Positions 55,361 to 62,033 of a DNA stretch of 64,000 bases are shown piece after piece (position 1 is the stretch's first letter; the number at the start of each line of letters is the position of its first letter). Where the stretch lies: assembly GCA_026390775.1 (NCBI GenBank), contig JAPLFF010000008.1, forward strand, positions 4,361-68,360. Direction: 5' to 3'. Origin of the DNA: Ignavibacteriales bacterium (GTDB lineage: Bacteria; Bacteroidota; Ignavibacteria; Ignavibacteriales; Melioribacteraceae). The translations under genes and the position numbers were made by a program. The notes under the pieces were generated by a model, which worked only from the letters and a program-made list of their open reading frames with translations, had not been told where the DNA came from and did not search any database.

Positions 55361-56095
55361 TTACCAGCTTCCGCTTGCTCCGCCGCCGCCAAAACCACCG
55401 CCACCCCCCGAAAATCCGCCAAAACCGCCGCCACCACCAGATCCCCATCCACCGCTACTACGACTGCCTCCCATTGAACCTAATATTATCCAAGGTAAAA
55501 TTCCACCACCTCCACCTTTCCCTCCTTTTCTAAAAATGGAAGAGATGATTATGAAAAGGATTATTACAAAGATGAAAGGAAATCCTGTACCGGTACCCTT
55601 TCCTCTTTTACCTCCATCTCCTTGATATTCACCGCGCGTTGCTAATGATATTGCATTTATTCCGGCGGCAATCCCCGAATAATAATCACCCTGCTTAAAA
55701 TAGGGACGGACTTCATTTCTAAGAATCGAGTTGGTAAGTGCATCCGGTAAAGTTCCTTCCAATCCGTAACCGACTTCAATTCTCATCTTGCGGTCATCCT
55801 TGGCAATAAAAAAAAGAACCCCATTATTATTTTTCTTTGAACCGATCTGATTTTTTGTTGCTGTTTGATATGTAAAATCTTCTAATGAAGCTCCATTAAG
55901 AGCAGAGATCATAAGAAATACAATTTGGTTGGAAGTTGAATCGTCAAATTTTTTAAGTGCTGTATTAAAAGTGTAGAGCTCGGAGCTTGATAATGTATTA
56001 GTAAAATCATTTGCATAATTTTTTAATACCGGAAACTCTATCTGAGCTTTCAGAAATAAAATAGGTAAGAATAAAAAGAAAATTATTTTTTTCAT
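55361..56095 (-). CDS. TPM-domain membrane protein (YgcG-type) with Gly-rich tail
   Basis: A 244-residue protein: signal peptide (KKIIFFLFLPILFLKA), TPM domain ('VLKNYANDFTNTLSS', 'QIVFLMISALNGASLEDF', 'MRIEVGYGLEGTLPDAL'), a single membrane helix ('FPFIFVIILFIIISSIF') and a Gly/Ser tail. It is typically paired with LemA, as here with about 40 bases between. Role unknown. Confidence 0.92.
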   Translation of the reverse strand: MKKIIFFLFLPILFLKAQIEFPVLKNYANDFTNTLSSSELYTFNTALKKFDDSTSNQIVFLMISALNGASLEDFTYQTATKNQIGSKKNNNGVLFFIAKDDRKMRIEVGYGLEGTLPDALTNSILRNEVRPYFKQGDYYSGIAAGINAISLATRGEYQGDGGKRGKGTGTGFPFIFVIILFIIISSIFRKGGKGGGGGILPWIILGSMGGSRSSGGWGSGGGGGFGGFSGGGGGFGGGGASGSW

Positions 56096-56136
56096 CAATT
56101 GTCCACTCTGCGTTCTAAACTCTTCACTTTATTTTC

Positions 56137-56742
56137 TTAAAACTGTACTTTTGGTGCTTGTTCTGAACCGACTGCTGCTTTGAAATATTCTTTTTCCTTA
56201 AAGCCGCCGAAGTTTGCAATTATTACACCGGGAAATTTCTTTATTGCAGTATTAAATTCAGCTGCAATCTGATTATATTTTTGTCTTTCTACAGTAATCC
56301 GATTTTCAGTACCTTCAAGTTGTTGCTGTAGAGTTTGAAAATTCTCACTCGCTTTCAGTTGGGGATAATTTTCGGATACAACTAATAATCGCGATAACGC
56401 ACTTCCCAAACCATCTTGAGCAGCTTGGAATTTTTGAATCATTGCAGGGTCGCTAAGCTGATCGGATGTGAGTTTAATCTGTCCAACTTTTGCACGGGCC
56501 TCTGTTACTGCTGTATAGGTTTCTTTTTCGAAGTTAGCAACACCTTTAACTGTTGCAACTAAATTTGGAACGAGATCGGCTCTTCTTTGATAAACATTTT
56601 CCACCTGGCCCCAGGCAGATTTTACGTTTTCATTCATTCCAACAAAACCATTGTATTTTCGTGTGACATAAGAAACCGTAAGAATAATAAAAACGACTAG
56701 CACACCAAGAATCCCCAAACCGATCTTAAGACCTTTGCTCAT
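56137..56742 (-). CDS. lemA: LemA-family protein
   Basis: A 201-residue LemA protein with an N-terminal membrane segment ('LGILGVLVVFIILTVSYVT') and the coiled domain 'VKSAWGQVENVYQRRADLVP', 'EARAKVGQIKLTSDQLSDP'. 'AGGAGGACAA' precedes the ATG. It is followed by the TPM protein in one operon. Confidence 0.95.
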   Translation of the reverse strand: MSKGLKIGLGILGVLVVFIILTVSYVTRKYNGFVGMNENVKSAWGQVENVYQRRADLVPNLVATVKGVANFEKETYTAVTEARAKVGQIKLTSDQLSDPAMIQKFQAAQDGLGSALSRLLVVSENYPQLKASENFQTLQQQLEGTENRITVERQKYNQIAAEFNTAIKKFPGVIIANFGGFKEKEYFKAAVGSEQAPKVQF

Positions 56743-56784: not shown

Positions 56785-58146
56785 TTAATTAGTAAGACTT
56801 CTCATCGGAGCGGGAATTCTTCCACCTCTACCGACAAATCCTGCACAGCTTATTGTTCTTACTTCCATGATTGGTGCTTTACCCAAGAGTCCGCCGTAAT
56901 CAACAAAGTCTCCGATCTTCTTTCCGTAGGCGGGAATAATTCTTACCGCCGTTGTTTTATCATTAATTATTCCAATGGCGGCTTCATCAGCAATTATTCC
57001 TGCAATAGTTGTAGCAGAAGTATCGCCAGGCACTGCAATCATATCAAGTCCAACTGAACAAACAGCCGTCATAGCTTCTAATTTTTCCAGTGAAAGATTT
57101 CCTGCCTGAACTGCGCGGATCATTCCCATATCTTCACTAACCGGAATAAACGCACCGCTCATTCCACCGACAGAAGAACTTGCCATCAAGCCGGCTTTCT
57201 TAACCGAATCATTCAACATAGCGAGAGCAGCAGTTGTTCCGGGCGCACCAACATCTTCAATGCCCATCGCTTTCAAAATATCTGCTATACTGTCACCTTC
57301 AGCAGGTGTAGGCGCTAAAGAAATATCTACGATTCCAAATGGAATTCTATTTTTCTCTGCGACTTTTCTTCCGATCAATTCTCCAGCACGTGTGATTTTA
57401 AAAATAGTTTTTTTGATCACTTCCGAAAGCTGCTGCAGATCAACATTTCCAGCTTCACGGATAGCTTCCAATACAACTCCGGGACCGCTGATACCAACAT
57501 TCAAAACAATTTCCGGTTCACTTACACCGTGGAATGCACCGGCAACAAACGGATTATCTTCAACTGCATTTGCAAAAACCACAAGTTTGGCACAACCGAT
57601 CGAATCGTTATCTTTTGTTTTTTCCGCAGTTAGTTTTATTGCCTCCGCCATCATCATCACTGCGTCCATATTAATGCCGGCTTTGGTAGAACCTATATTA
57701 ACGCTTGAGCAGACTCTTTTTGTTTGTGAAAGTGCAAATGGAATTGATTTTATTAGTTCCAGTTCACCGTTGGTCATTCCTTTTTGAACAAGTGCTGTGA
57801 ATCCGGCAATATAGTCTATACCGATTTCTTCGGCAACTTTATCAAGAGTCTTTGCAATTTCAATAAATTCTTCTGCGTTACAAGCATCGAATGGAATTGA
57901 AATTGGTGTTACAGATATACGCTTATTTGCAATTGAAATTCCGTATTGTGATTCCACTTCTTTAGCAAGTTTTACATGCTGTTTTCCGTATCGAAGAATC
58001 TTATCATATATTTTTTGTTTAGTCACTTCAATATTTCTATCATGGCAATCTCTCAAACTAATTCCCATCGTTACAGTTCTAATATCGAAATGCTCGATCT
58101 CAGTCATTCGGATAGTTTCAAGTATTTCTCCAAACTCATAAGGCAT
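56785..58146 (-). CDS. UPF0210/PFL-like (DUF711) protein
   Basis: A 453-residue protein of the DUF711 family, related to pyruvate formate-lyase fold. Family marks: '[13 protein letters not shown]', '[18 protein letters not shown]', '[19 protein letters not shown]' and 'MRSLTN' at the end. ATG 58146 is used; a TTG three codons upstream is possible. Its usual partner, an ACT protein, precedes it by about 100 bases. Function unknown. Confidence 0.9.
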
Positions 58147-58244
58147 GATTTGCAAATCCTATTTGTAATCGTGAAATTTAAGACGTGAAAAGTGAAACGT
58201 TAAAAGATTTATTCGTTTGACGTTTGACATTTCACTTTTGATAA

Positions 58245-58670
58245 TCATATTCTGTGCATAAAACGGAAAACATCCTCGTGCTGCAAATAAATTTTTATTT
58301 TCAGCAATTCAGCAATTTTATTCATCTCTTCTTGAATTTCTTTTAAATCTTTTTGCGAAGTGGAAATATCAATTACCATAATCATTGTAAAAAAATCGCC
58401 GAGAATTTTTTGACTAAGATCTTGAATATCACAATTTGCATCACCAAGTGCTTTAGTTACACCCGCCACTATGCCGGGATGATTCAAACCAAATGATGTT
58501 AAAATTACACGACCTGATGAGACATCACTTTTATCAAATTTGTAATCGCCGCCCATTGATTCAACTCGTCTACGTACCAATTCTTTTACTGCTTCCGGAG
58601 TAGCTTTATCTCCTAATTCACTAATTGCTTCAAATGTAATTTTTCTTACTTCTTCTTCTGAAAACTTCAC
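58245..58670 (-). CDS. ACT-domain protein (UPF0237 type) with N-terminal extension, GTG start
   Basis: A 141-residue protein: ACT domain in the C-terminal 90 residues ('ILTSFGLNHPGIVAGVTKAL', 'CDIQDLSQKILGDFFTMIM') and an extra N-terminal 50 residues ('ITFEAISELGDKATPEAVKE'). The GTG start overlaps the TPR protein stop by four bases (GTGA). It probably senses an amino acid and works with the UPF0210 protein. Confidence 0.88.
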   Translation of the reverse strand: MKFSEEEVRKITFEAISELGDKATPEAVKELVRRRVESMGGDYKFDKSDVSSGRVILTSFGLNHPGIVAGVTKALGDANCDIQDLSQKILGDFFTMIMVIDISTSQKDLKEIQEEMNKIAELLKIKIYLQHEDVFRFMHRI

Positions 58671-59503
58671 GGTTTGACACCCTTATATTCGTTCTGAAGA
58701 TAACGCAAAGATTTATTTGAGATTTCTAAATTTTTCTCGAGTGCAAATTCTTCCGCGTTTTGAATGGCTCCTCTATAGAAACGAAGCCAAACTAATTCTG
58801 CTACTACAACTCCGTCAAACACTCGATCTTCTATGAATGAACTGACCGTCCAATACCCGGAAAGTAAATTCCAACCTAATGACATTAATCCGGATAAGAA
58901 TTTGCCGCTATAAATTGCTCCCGCACCAGGCAAAATATATGAAATTACCTTTGCAAATGTTACAGAAACTTTAGCTTTGTCCGTTCGCTCAGCAAGTATT
59001 TTTAATTCATGGTTGGAATTAATTTTAGCAAAAGATTTGGCGGCAGCTTCCCAATTATCCGCAAAGATATAAGTCCATCCTCTCCAATAATTGATTTGAT
59101 CGCTCTTTTCACTAAATCGTTGATCTTTTTCAAGTTCATCACAAAGTTGCAGCGCTCGGTCGGTTGTTCTTCTTAAAATATTCGTTCGGATAATTTGTGT
59201 TTTTGAATCGCAATATTCATCATCGTTACGAGCACTGAGCTCTGCAAAAGAAAAATATTTTATCTCTTCATCATATTTAGCCCCGGCTTTGTAACATTCT
59301 CCAATTTTATAATTTGATTCGTAATTGAATGTTTTAGTTGAATCGAAAAATTGAAGACGTTTATACTCAGTAATTGCATCGTAGTATTGTTTGCTGTTAA
59401 ATAGATTATTAGCATAATCAAACTGAATTGACAAATGATCTTGTGCTTTTACTGTAAATAAAAATGTTGATAGAAAGAATATTATTGTAACCCGGATTTT
59501 CAT
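58667..59503 (-). CDS. Exported TPR protein with PGAG membrane motif (2)
   Basis: A 278-residue protein: signal peptide, about four TPR-like helices ('YANNLFNSKQYYDAITEYK', 'NYKIGECYKAGAKYDEEIK', 'YWRGWTYIFADNWEAAAK'). A membrane part at 180-240 follows with 'ISYILPGAGAIYSGKFLSG' (PGAG at 192-195), 'LMSLGWNLLSGYWTVSSFI' and 'FDGVVVAELVWLRFY'. The ATG at 59503 lies one base after the upstream stop. Same motif as the neighbour at 59505. The second half resembles DUF5683/TM2-like 'PGxGqIYnG' membrane domains. Role unknown. Confidence 0.8.
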   Translation of the reverse strand: MKIRVTIIFFLSTFLFTVKAQDHLSIQFDYANNLFNSKQYYDAITEYKRLQFFDSTKTFNYESNYKIGECYKAGAKYDEEIKYFSFAELSARNDDEYCDSKTQIIRTNILRRTTDRALQLCDELEKDQRFSEKSDQINYWRGWTYIFADNWEAAAKSFAKINSNHELKILAERTDKAKVSVTFAKVISYILPGAGAIYSGKFLSGLMSLGWNLLSGYWTVSSFIEDRVFDGVVVAELVWLRFYRGAIQNAEEFALEKNLEISNKSLRYLQNEYKGVKP

Positions 59504-59504
59504 A

Positions 59505-60389
59505 TTAGTAATCAACCTTGGGTAAAAAATAATTTCTTTGTTCGAAAAATAGTTTTACTTCCTTATCAAAATTGAATTGAATTCTTGCATTATAAATTTG
59601 CGCCGATGCAGCTGAGCCGTAAATATTCCCGGCATAGAAAAAAGCTGCCAGTCCGCTAAACAACCATCCTCTGAATTGATGATCAGCATTGAAATTTGCA
59701 ACTGCCAGATATGTTGTTAATGCAGTTACAATTAATGAAGTTACCCCATCACCAACTTCTCCGGTATATATTTTACCGGCTCCGGGTATTAACGCAGACA
59801 AAATTACAGCGGTTGTAGGGCTTTTGTGCTGTGGATATTTCTTCTGTTGATAAAAATTTATCAGTTGAGACTGAACCGAGTCGGGAAAATTTTTTAATAC
59901 AACATTTTCATCCGGCAGAATTGAAGTATCAAGAAAGTATGATGTGTATTTTAATCGCTCAATATCTTTTCCGTACTGTGAAGAATTAAAATTCTTTTCT
60001 TCCGCAAGCTCACGAAATAATTTATAATCCTTCTGAAAAAAGATAGTTTCATAAAATAACAATCGGGCTTCTTCAGATAATTGCGAACCGAAAAATAATC
60101 CCTTAAAATTATCTGCCGCTTCAGTATAACGTCCAATTTTAAAATAGCTATTGGCTAATCTGAATACTATTGTATCATTGTATACACTCTTCAAATAAAC
60201 TTTGAATTCATCTGCAGCTCGTAAATAATCTTTATCCTTATAAAGATAGTTTCCAAATTGCAGTCTATTGTGTGGAGAGAAAAAATTTCGATTGTTAGCT
60301 GACAATTGACAGTTGTGAGTAGTTAGTGGGACAATAAATAATAATACTGTAATTAAAAAACGATAGGCAATTTTAGTTCTCAATATCAC
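59505..60389 (-). CDS. Exported TPR protein with PGAG membrane motif (1), GTG start
   Basis: A 294-residue protein starting at GTG 60389, inside the YidD-like gene end (17-base overlap). A signal peptide (YRFLITVLLFIVPLT) is followed by TPR-like helices ('LYKDKDYLRAADEFKVYL', 'RLANSYFKIGRYTEAADNF') and a membrane part with 'ILSALIPGAGKIYTGEVGDG' (PGAG 202-205), 'TTYLAVANFNADHQFRGWLF'. The signal-peptide end, 'THNCQLSANN', is encoded by a dispersed repeat (60295-60327). Confidence 0.78.
   Translation of the reverse strand: MILRTKIAYRFLITVLLFIVPLTTHNCQLSANNRNFFSPHNRLQFGNYLYKDKDYLRAADEFKVYLKSVYNDTIVFRLANSYFKIGRYTEAADNFKGLFFGSQLSEEARLLFYETIFFQKDYKLFRELAEEKNFNSSQYGKDIERLKYTSYFLDTSILPDENVVLKNFPDSVQSQLINFYQQKKYPQHKSPTTAVILSALIPGAGKIYTGEVGDGVTSLIVTALTTYLAVANFNADHQFRGWLFSGLAAFFYAGNIYGSAASAQIYNARIQFNFDKEVKLFFEQRNYFLPKVDY
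60295..60327. repeat. Dispersed repeat in the signal-peptide region of the TPR gene
   Basis: 'GTTAGCTGACAATTGACAG' followed by 'TTGTGAGTAGTTAG' is related to the intergenic unit at 19813. It encodes 'TTHNCQLSAN'. Confidence 0.45.
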
Positions 60390-60846
60390 GGCCAGAATAG
60401 AATTTTATTTTTTTAGAATAAAGTGTATAGTTATAAGCAGGGTCAAAAAATTTATTAGATGAAAGCAACAGGTAATGATTCATTCCTTTAAAAAAATTTA
60501 AGTCCCGTGTAAAACGGTCTGCGAACATCAACGTTCCTTTAAAAATACTTGTTTCTTTAACTGACTGAAGAAAAAATGCTGAGCACGATGGTTCGAAAGG
60601 ACAATTATCGCCATCCAAATCAGATATAAAAAAGTAATATGTGTCTCGCATAACCGAAAGCAATGTCATTCCCAAACTAGATTTATCAACTGTATAATCA
60701 TGATGATGAGTGGCAAGAAGTTCGTAAAAAGTTTCTTTACCTTCCCACTTTACCCAATCAGTTTGTGCATTAAGATTATATGTAGAACTGAATAAGAATA
60801 AATAAATACAAATGCTTAATGCTTTTCCAACTTTGAATCTTTTCAC
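60373..60846 (-). CDS. Exported YidD-like protein (GTG start)
   Basis: A 157-residue protein: signal peptide (ALSICIYLFLFSSTYNLNA), a short unique part and a YidD-like core at about 69-117 ('YYFFISDLDGDNCPFEPSCS' with C82 and C88, then 'KGTLMFADRFTRDLNF'). YidD proteins are normally 70-85 residues, cytoplasmic face, beside yidC and rnpA; this one is exported and larger, in another context. GTG 60846 follows AGGA five bases upstream. It is first in the cassette. Confidence 0.82.
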   Translation of the reverse strand: MKRFKVGKALSICIYLFLFSSTYNLNAQTDWVKWEGKETFYELLATHHHDYTVDKSSLGMTLLSVMRDTYYFFISDLDGDNCPFEPSCSAFFLQSVKETSIFKGTLMFADRFTRDLNFFKGMNHYLLLSSNKFFDPAYNYTLYSKKIKFYSGRDIEN

Positions 60847-60890: not shown

Positions 60891-62033
60891 TCAATCTTTC
60901 AACAATTCTCTCGCAATTATAATTCTCTGAATCTCCGAAGTACCTTCGTAAATTTCCGTGATCTTCGCATCGCGTAAATATCTTTCAACTAAATATTCTC
61001 TAACGTAACCATAACCACCGTGGATTTGAATTGCTTCAAGTGCACATTCCACTGCAATTTTTGAGGAATACAATTTAGCCATTGCCGATTCTTTAACATA
61101 TTTCTTATCGGCATCTTTTAATGCTGCAGCTTGAAGAGTTAAAAGTTTTGCCGCTTCAACTTTCGTTGACATATCTGCAAGCTTAAATTGAATTGCCTGA
61201 TGGTTAGAAATTTCAGTTCCAAAAGCTTTGCGGGTTTTTGCATATTTAGTAGCGGCATCAAGACATCCTTCAGCAATTCCAACAGCTTGGGATGCAATTC
61301 CAATTCTTCCGCCGTTCAAAGTATTCATTGCAAAGTTAAATCCTTTGCCGACTTCCCAAATAATATTTTCTTCCGGAACTTTGCAGTTTTCAAAAGTTAA
61401 CGAACAAGTATCGCTGCTTCTAATACCAAGTTTATCTTCTTTAACTCCGTGCCCAAAACCCGGCGTTCCTTTTTCTACCAGAAATGTTGTAATTCCGTGA
61501 TGAGCTTTTTCTTTATCTGTTTGAGTAACAACTAAATAATAATCAGCGGAAGATCCATTGGTAATCCAATTCTTCATTCCGTTAATAACCCAATGATTAC
61601 CTTCCTTATGTGCATATGTGTTTTGCTTAGTTGCATCACTTCCGGCTTCAGGTTCTGATAATGCAAATGCCCCAAGTTTTTCTCCGCGTGCAAGTGGTTT
61701 TAAATATTTTTCTTTTATAAGATCGCTTCCCCACTTTTCCAATCCGTAACAAACTAATGAATTGTTTACGGACATTATTACTCCCAGACTTGCATCAACT
61801 TTTGAAATCTCAATCATTGCTAAAACATAACTAACGGTATCAAGTCCGGCACCATCATATTTTAGATCTACCATCATTCCCATAAATCCAAGTTCGCCAA
61901 GTTTCTTTACCAATTCAGCAGGGAATTTAGATTCTTTATCCCGCTCAACTGAAGTTGGAGCTATTTCAGATTCTGCAAACTCTCGAGCTGTCTGCTGGAT
62001 CATCAATTGTTCTTCTGTGAATTCGAAGTTCAT
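60891..62033 (-). CDS. Acyl-CoA dehydrogenase
   Basis: A 380-residue FAD enzyme. Signatures: 'FALSEPEAGSDATKQ', 'ITNGSSADYYLVVTQT', 'GRIGIASQAVGIAEG' and the catalytic Glu in 'EIYEGTSEIQRIIIAREL'. Shape is short/medium-chain (butyryl-CoA type), and the gene stands alone. A Shine-Dalgarno 'GAGGAAAGG' lies before the ATG. No etfAB gene is in the window. Confidence 0.94.
   Translation of the reverse strand: MNFEFTEEQLMIQQTAREFAESEIAPTSVERDKESKFPAELVKKLGELGFMGMMVDLKYDGAGLDTVSYVLAMIEISKVDASLGVIMSVNNSLVCYGLEKWGSDLIKEKYLKPLARGEKLGAFALSEPEAGSDATKQNTYAHKEGNHWVINGMKNWITNGSSADYYLVVTQTDKEKAHHGITTFLVEKGTPGFGHGVKEDKLGIRSSDTCSLTFENCKVPEENIIWEVGKGFNFAMNTLNGGRIGIASQAVGIAEGCLDAATKYAKTRKAFGTEISNHQAIQFKLADMSTKVEAAKLLTLQAAALKDADKKYVKESAMAKLYSSKIAVECALEAIQIHGGYGYVREYLVERYLRDAKITEIYEGTSEIQRIIIARELLKD

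Follow-up and report, generated by a model that had tools for sequence, protein, structure and literature searches.

A conserved gene module of Ignavibacteriales combining a YidD-like protein, predicted to be exported, with two TPR-like paralogues

The window, that is the whole stretch of 64,000 nucleotides analysed here, lies on contig C8 of an Ignavibacteriales genome that is nearly complete, and it contains three consecutive minus-strand genes, A, B and C, which encode a YidD-like protein with a predicted signal peptide and two mutually related proteins combining TPR-like and hydrophobic regions. The existence of this module is secure, and it is best read as an envelope module of long standing in Bacteroidota, of which A-B-C is the version seen in Ignavibacteriales. 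Regarding its function we tentatively propose, with a probability of roughly 0.4, that it acts at the periplasmic side of the membrane, where the relocated YidD would cooperate with two TPR scaffolds anchored in the membrane to handle hydrophobic or lipidated cargo. YidD itself is a small protein that normally assists inner-membrane assembly from within the cell; it occurs very widely among bacteria, its mode of action is still only vaguely understood, and it is thought of as working on the cytoplasmic side. A literature search returned nothing on YidD in combination with TPR and a signal peptide, nor on YidD in Ignavibacteria.

The gene cluster and its YidD-like protein

The three genes are flanked by an acyl-CoA dehydrogenase gene (60891–62033) on one side and by an ACT-domain gene on the other, and the following features were assigned:

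60373–60846, minus strand: gene A, predicted exported YidD-like protein, 157 residues, GTG start (PF01809 and TIGR00278 matches; 54 of 57 relatives)
60766–60846, minus strand: predicted signal peptide of A, residues 1–27, before QTDW (read by eye; near-invariant Q; hydrophobic segment)
60487–60657, minus strand: YidD core of A, residues 64–120 (Pfam match range)
60580–60603, minus strand: C-x5-C-S motif of A (CPFEPSCS), residues 82–89 (invariant columns C82, P86, C88 and S89)
59505–60389, minus strand: gene B, predicted exported TPR-like protein with a C-terminal PGAG hydrophobic (TM2/DUF5683-like) domain, 294 residues (profile searches, alignment)
60102–60278, minus strand: TPR-like region of B, residues 38–96 (PF12895, TPR_2 and TPR_16 matches, all below cut-off)
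59604–59837, minus strand: PGAGKIYTGE...GNIYGS domain of B with predicted membrane helix or helices, residues 185–262 (invariant columns, sub-cut-off DUF5683/TM2 matches, hydropathy)
58667–59503, minus strand: gene C, paralogue of B, 278 residues from the ATG at 59503 or 282 from the TTG at 59515 (hhalign with B, alignment)
58766–58969, minus strand: PGAGAIYSGK... hydrophobic domain of C, residues 183–250 of the 282-residue form (invariant P196, G197, G199, Y202 and G204)
58245–58670, minus strand: ACT-domain gene, sharing 4 nt with the end of C (ACT_6 and ACT Pfam matches)

The initial annotation had described three overlapping genes on one strand. These are indeed consecutive and all on the minus strand, but the overlap of 17 nt between A and B is specific to the window, since the window's A has a tyrosine codon where close relatives have a stop and thereby gains eight residues (YSGRDIEN; 60373–60405, minus strand); in the close relatives A and B lie about 7 nt apart. 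For C, the ATG at 59503, as in relatives, is a more likely start than the TTG at 59515, so that B and C would abut without overlapping. The exact 4-nt overlap between C and the ACT-domain gene recurs in all 42 loci of the window's type (type 1, A-B-C) in which ACT comes after C; this gene belongs to the same operon, probably with a function separate from that of the module. In 21 other type 1 loci a LemA gene directly follows C instead. In the window the ACT-domain gene is followed by a DUF711 gene (56785–58155, minus strand) and, further down the same strand, by a LemA gene and then a TPM-domain-like gene (55361–56742, minus strand).

Gene A had been read as a signal peptide followed by a YidD-like core, with a PF01809 search named among the checks, and this reading stands: A matches both PF01809 (38.8 bits, curated cut-off 27, E=7.9e-10) and TIGR00278 (45 bits, cut-off 40, E=7.4e-12). 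The predicted signal peptide, MKRFKVGKALSICIYLFLFSSTYNLNA, was delimited by eye and from the conservation of the glutamine that follows it; it ends in NLNA before QTDW, and this Q is near-invariant in an alignment of 28 relatives. In fact, the N-termini of A, B and C are all basic and then hydrophobic, and those of the relatives close with the usual pattern before a glutamine that never varies in C and hardly varies in A and B (26–28 relatives), the pattern in C being TVKA before QDH. The export call is thus a by-eye prediction for each of the three, reached likewise for some 30 diverged sequences per family, and on these grounds A is predicted to be exported together with B and C.

The remarks that A is about twice the usual YidD length and is not next to rnpA or yidC were likewise borne out. 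The genome contains exactly two YidD matches, A itself and a canonical YidD of 69 residues located directly beside rnpA on contig C7; A is 2.3 times as long as the latter and sits between the acyl-CoA dehydrogenase gene and B, adjoining neither rnpA nor yidC. Since the ordinary YidD is kept beside rnpA, A is an additional, relocated YidD and not a replacement. When mapped on YidD, the exported proteins retain the Y-x-x-x-[IV]-S and C-x5-C-S motifs and the arginine-bearing helix after them, the core motif C-x5-C-[ST] being present in exported and canonical rows alike. In type 1 A proteins the third cysteine and the GG-x-DPVP tail are replaced by a distinctive F-x-D-R-F-x-R-D and by DP, the window's A having RDLNFF and FFDPA in place of R-C-x-P and GG-x-DPVP; the A' proteins of a second type (see below) keep the RC and are without this tail.

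The structure model of A is modest (pLDDT 73, pTM 0.49), and a PDB structure search using it gave no useful match; a sequence search for a solved YidD structure found none. Searches of viral contigs gave no match, and plasmids yielded only what look like canonical YidDs. Three candidate fused or long YidD forms (L173, L223 and L225) were discarded, being over-long open frames around canonical YidD cores.

The paralogues B and C, conservation and related architectures

In a profile comparison B and C can be aligned across 232 columns, their PGAG.IY.G motifs falling at matching positions (hhalign 99.4%, E=1.9e-21), which agrees with the earlier suggestion that the two are related and share this motif at the same relative place; judged from their sequences, B and C are true paralogues. 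That both have signal peptides and TPR-like helices is consistent with the predictions, but in the window's own proteins the TPR matches, weak and consistent, fall just below cut-off (C, 24.0 versus 26.3). The B protein of the relative L174 does exceed the cut-off of a TPR model (45.6 versus 27), and the B/C family profile matches solved TPR proteins. The model searches advised in the initial annotation gave a similar picture, as TPR models match B and C weakly and DUF5683 and TM2 match B at 19.4 bits (cut-off 26.7) and 16.2 bits (cut-off 27.9), all below threshold; a further weak match of B is to NF047503 'LB_137 family' (14.6 bits versus a cut-off of 200). Residues P202, G203, G205, K206, Y208, G254 and G258 of B are invariant in the alignment, and both paralogues have an internal hydrophobic domain and are without a lipobox.

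Among 57 relatives A is found in 54 and B in 53. The order A-B-C on one strand is seen in 29 of the 30 loci read gene by gene and is intact in all 74 Ignavibacterial loci with a long enough contig, a set drawn from 80 named GTDB loci which shares some genomes with the former. In the exception among the 30 (L060) the next PGAG gene lies farther from B, separated from it by other open frames. The A-B distance is mostly −4 to +7 nt, and dN/dS against close relatives amounts to 0.17–0.32 for A, 0.15–0.17 for B and 0.14–0.18 for C. These counts and ratios indicate that the linkage is not due to chance, and the co-occurrence in related genomes, on which the initial annotation had staked its proposal, is found. 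Among 247 genomes sampled from the phylum, strong type 1 A proteins are confined to Ignavibacteriales.

Besides type 1, two further architectures were recognised: type 2, in which a LolA-like gene accompanies A', B' and C', and type 3, an A-B fusion. Type 2 is represented by 15 loci, some in the window's class (L179, L180, L186, L217, L218 and L219, the last ending after B' at the contig end) and the others in another class of Bacteroidota (L297–L299, L301–L305 and L307), found by a search around the most distant match, G233; in the order concerned, 17 of 148 genomes match at E≤1e-8, about 13 of these with exported forms. Genome G004, from the same genus as the window, has a type 2 module (L186, 2194–5008) in addition to a type 1 module (L011), which suggests that the two types are probably not interchangeable. 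In the window's class a gene for a small two-helix protein precedes the type 2 LolA-like gene, and this differs from a small gene seen in most loci of the second class, which encodes a signal peptide and a TM2 domain and is convergent to the operon end. Type 3, present in three genomes, is a single gene of about 400 codons in which the YidD part is followed by a helical region and then by the PGAG domain. The positions are:

L297 2022–2453, L299 2294–2731, L307 3447–3899 and others: signal-peptide and TM2-domain gene, convergent to type 2
L178 5099–6301, L220 4902–6098, L222 4000–5331: type 3 fusion

A PEGA-domain gene lies directly upstream of the fusion in L178 and L220, as identified with Pfam, and a similar sequence is found in L222; these upstream genes are lipoprotein genes. 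The fusion is a natural one and provides direct evidence for joint action of A and B. In L174 and L308 A and B are unfused and C is missing. An alignment mixing the fusions with unfused A and B rows was set aside, as it misaligned the TPRs of B onto YidD. A tree built from 52 rows (B, C and fusions) places every B protein of types 1 and 2 on one side and every C protein on the other (99/98, all bootstraps), and therefore the B/C duplication is older than both the split between types 1 and 2 and that between the classes, unless the modules were transferred whole.

The LolA-like partner and the possible function of the module

Taken singly, the LolA-like sequences of type 2 give weak matches to LolA models, several of them independent. 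Of the 15 sequences, eight match Pfam LolA_like and seven match TIGR00547 (lolA) weakly, with a best E of 1.3e-4, and one member scores 14.4 bits against the latter, under the lolA equivalog cut-off of 112 bits. As a family of 15, compared with 15 canonical LolA proteins from relatives of the window, they reach an hhalign probability of 96.1% (E=3.5e-9); with six sequences only, the similarity to LolA was weak (37.7%). The AlphaFold (AF2) model has a pLDDT of 87.5 and matches LolA structures with Foldseek E values down to 8.5e-13, the DALI-scale Z being about 12–16 to most LolA, LolA3 and LolB structures. As modelled, the partner is thus a LolA-fold protein, with a half-open beta-barrel. The sensors RseB and MucB and the enzyme VioE share this fold and appear lower in the same list of structural matches, and for this reason lipoprotein carriage does not follow from the fold. 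The LolA3 of P. gingivalis has a similar fold (Z 16.2) and no sequence match at E≤0.1, and it is not claimed here as a type 2 LolA. A link to the pigment flexirubin, suggested by LolA2, was dropped: no pigment genes were recognised beside the type 2 loci read.

The proposal that A-B-C is an envelope module reusing the YidD fold outside the cytoplasm is well supported in respect of its parts and their predicted location, and it is strengthened by the natural A-B fusions and by the conserved partners in the second Bacteroidota class. In the cargo-handling mechanism that we favour, A would be exported and use its amphipathic YidD core to sit on a membrane from the periplasmic side, while the PGAG domains of B and C would anchor these two proteins in the inner membrane and leave their TPRs exposed to the periplasm. 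B and C would bind A, the fusion having A and B in one chain, and together the three may form a periplasmic-side platform on which lipidated or hydrophobic cargo is taken up or oriented. In type 2 the dedicated LolA-superfamily protein could then take the cargo from the platform and ferry it across the periplasm, and in type 1 the carrier step might be performed by the ordinary LolA of the genome, or there may be no carrier. The YidD core would accordingly serve hydrophobic segments as an adaptor at membrane interfaces in general, with no obligatory link to ribosome or cytoplasm. The emphasis on lipid or lipoprotein handling, rather than on insertion of membrane proteins, comes from the LolA-superfamily protein being the only recurrent partner of known fold; given that the window's type 1 module has no LolA-like gene, this argument about the cargo derives from the relatives.

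Insertion from the other side of the membrane has nevertheless to be considered, with the exported YidD and its TPR partners contacting YidC/SecYEG or newly inserted proteins from outside and aiding periplasmic loops or late-folding helices. The YidD core motif kept in A and the TPRs and hydrophobic domain of B and C would suit such a helper, as would the inclusion of E. coli YidD among SecYEG interactors, where it figures as a putative insertion efficiency factor on evidence from cross-linking and transport assays in vitro (Yu et al. 2011, cited in PMC8082313). However, the exported-module loci read have no linkage to rnpA, yidC or sec genes, the analysis gave no connection of the module with YidC, Sec or BAM, its recurrent partner resembles LolA rather than a Sec component, and the same genome keeps its ordinary YidD, so that we consider this explanation rather unlikely. 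A similar setting at the outer membrane, with B and C as BamD-type scaffolds and A docked on the inner leaflet to help beta-barrel proteins or surface polymers, would agree with every part being predicted as exported and with weak matches of C to BamD (OM_YfiO) and YbgF and of B to YbgF. Yet these matches reflect generic TPR similarity, far below the cut-offs (12.9 versus 81.4; 19.4 versus 90.1), and the internal hydrophobic domain and missing lipobox of B and C also make such a role improbable.

The structural kinship of the LolA-like protein with RseB and MucB evokes an envelope stress or quality sensor, in which the LolA-like and TPR proteins would sense accumulating lipids or lipoproteins and A would be a membrane-surface partner; the ACT domain, a ligand-sensing one, encoded by the gene overlapping type 1 units in 42 loci points the same way. 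No sigma or anti-sigma gene was seen beside the modules read, though, and the ACT linkage is absent from types 2 and 3 and from the type 1 loci with LemA after C, which leaves the sensor with an equally small chance as the outer-membrane role. PF01809 was once named a haemolytic domain and A has an amphipathic segment (residues 99–118), and a secreted membrane-active, hemolysin-like protein with accessory proteins could be imagined on this account; a nearly universal presence within one order, purifying selection, constant partners that have hydrophobic anchors, and the lack of secretion or immunity genes render it highly improbable.

Returning to the cargo-handling platform, its furthest extension would be a path for lipids or lipoproteins across the Bacteroidota envelope that has not been described before and that operates beside the ordinary Lol system, with an exported YidD, a TPR paralogue pair and, in type 2, a private LolA-fold carrier, YidD being then a compartment-independent membrane-interface adaptor; this we regard as doubtful. 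Flavobacterium johnsoniae survives the loss of all five of its known LolA and LolB homologues, and its surface lipoproteins still reach their destination (PMC11885536), from which further routes are to be expected in Bacteroidota, and the module may add a second, dedicated one to outer-membrane biogenesis in this phylum. A conserved YidD with a predicted signal peptide and fixed partners, including a lipid-carrier fold in relatives, detaches the YidD core from ribosome and YidC alike, and it offers a system for a direct search of YidD partners and cargo.

Comparison with known systems

In common with YidD (PF01809, TIGR00278), A has the C-x5-C-S core, the amphipathic helix with a conserved arginine and a terminal DP. 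It differs in its predicted signal peptide and about 40–60 extra N-terminal residues, in the loss, in type 1, of the third cysteine (RC to RD) and of the GG-x-DPVP tail, and in being accompanied by B and C instead of lying beside rnpA/yidC. Relative to canonical YidDs of the same phylum the exported ones make up a separate clade, 33 exported sequences being split from 11 canonical ones (100/98) in a tree of uncertain root based on 85 YidD columns, which are few.

The resemblance to LolA and LolA-like carriers (PF03548, PF17131) concerns the type 2 partner only, which has the same fold and a remote sequence homology (hhalign 96%); unlike LolA it falls far below the lolA equivalog cut-off and is encoded in an exported-YidD operon, and the canonical LolA of the window's genome is a separate gene. 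A parallel in organisation is the LolA2-LolB2 pair of the flexirubin locus, where a LolA-type protein is likewise dedicated to one operon and has been proposed to carry the pigment or lipoproteins of the locus (PMC11885536). No pigment genes were recognised in the type 2 stretches read, and the study of Bacteroidota LolA1-3/LolB1-2 makes no mention of YidD (PMC11885536). Finally, B has in common with DUF5683 (PF18935) and TM2 (PF05154) the P-G-x-G-x-x-Y-x-G turn followed by hydrophobic helices, but lies below the cut-offs of both, and here the domain is joined to N-terminal TPRs and a signal peptide and is duplicated as B and C.
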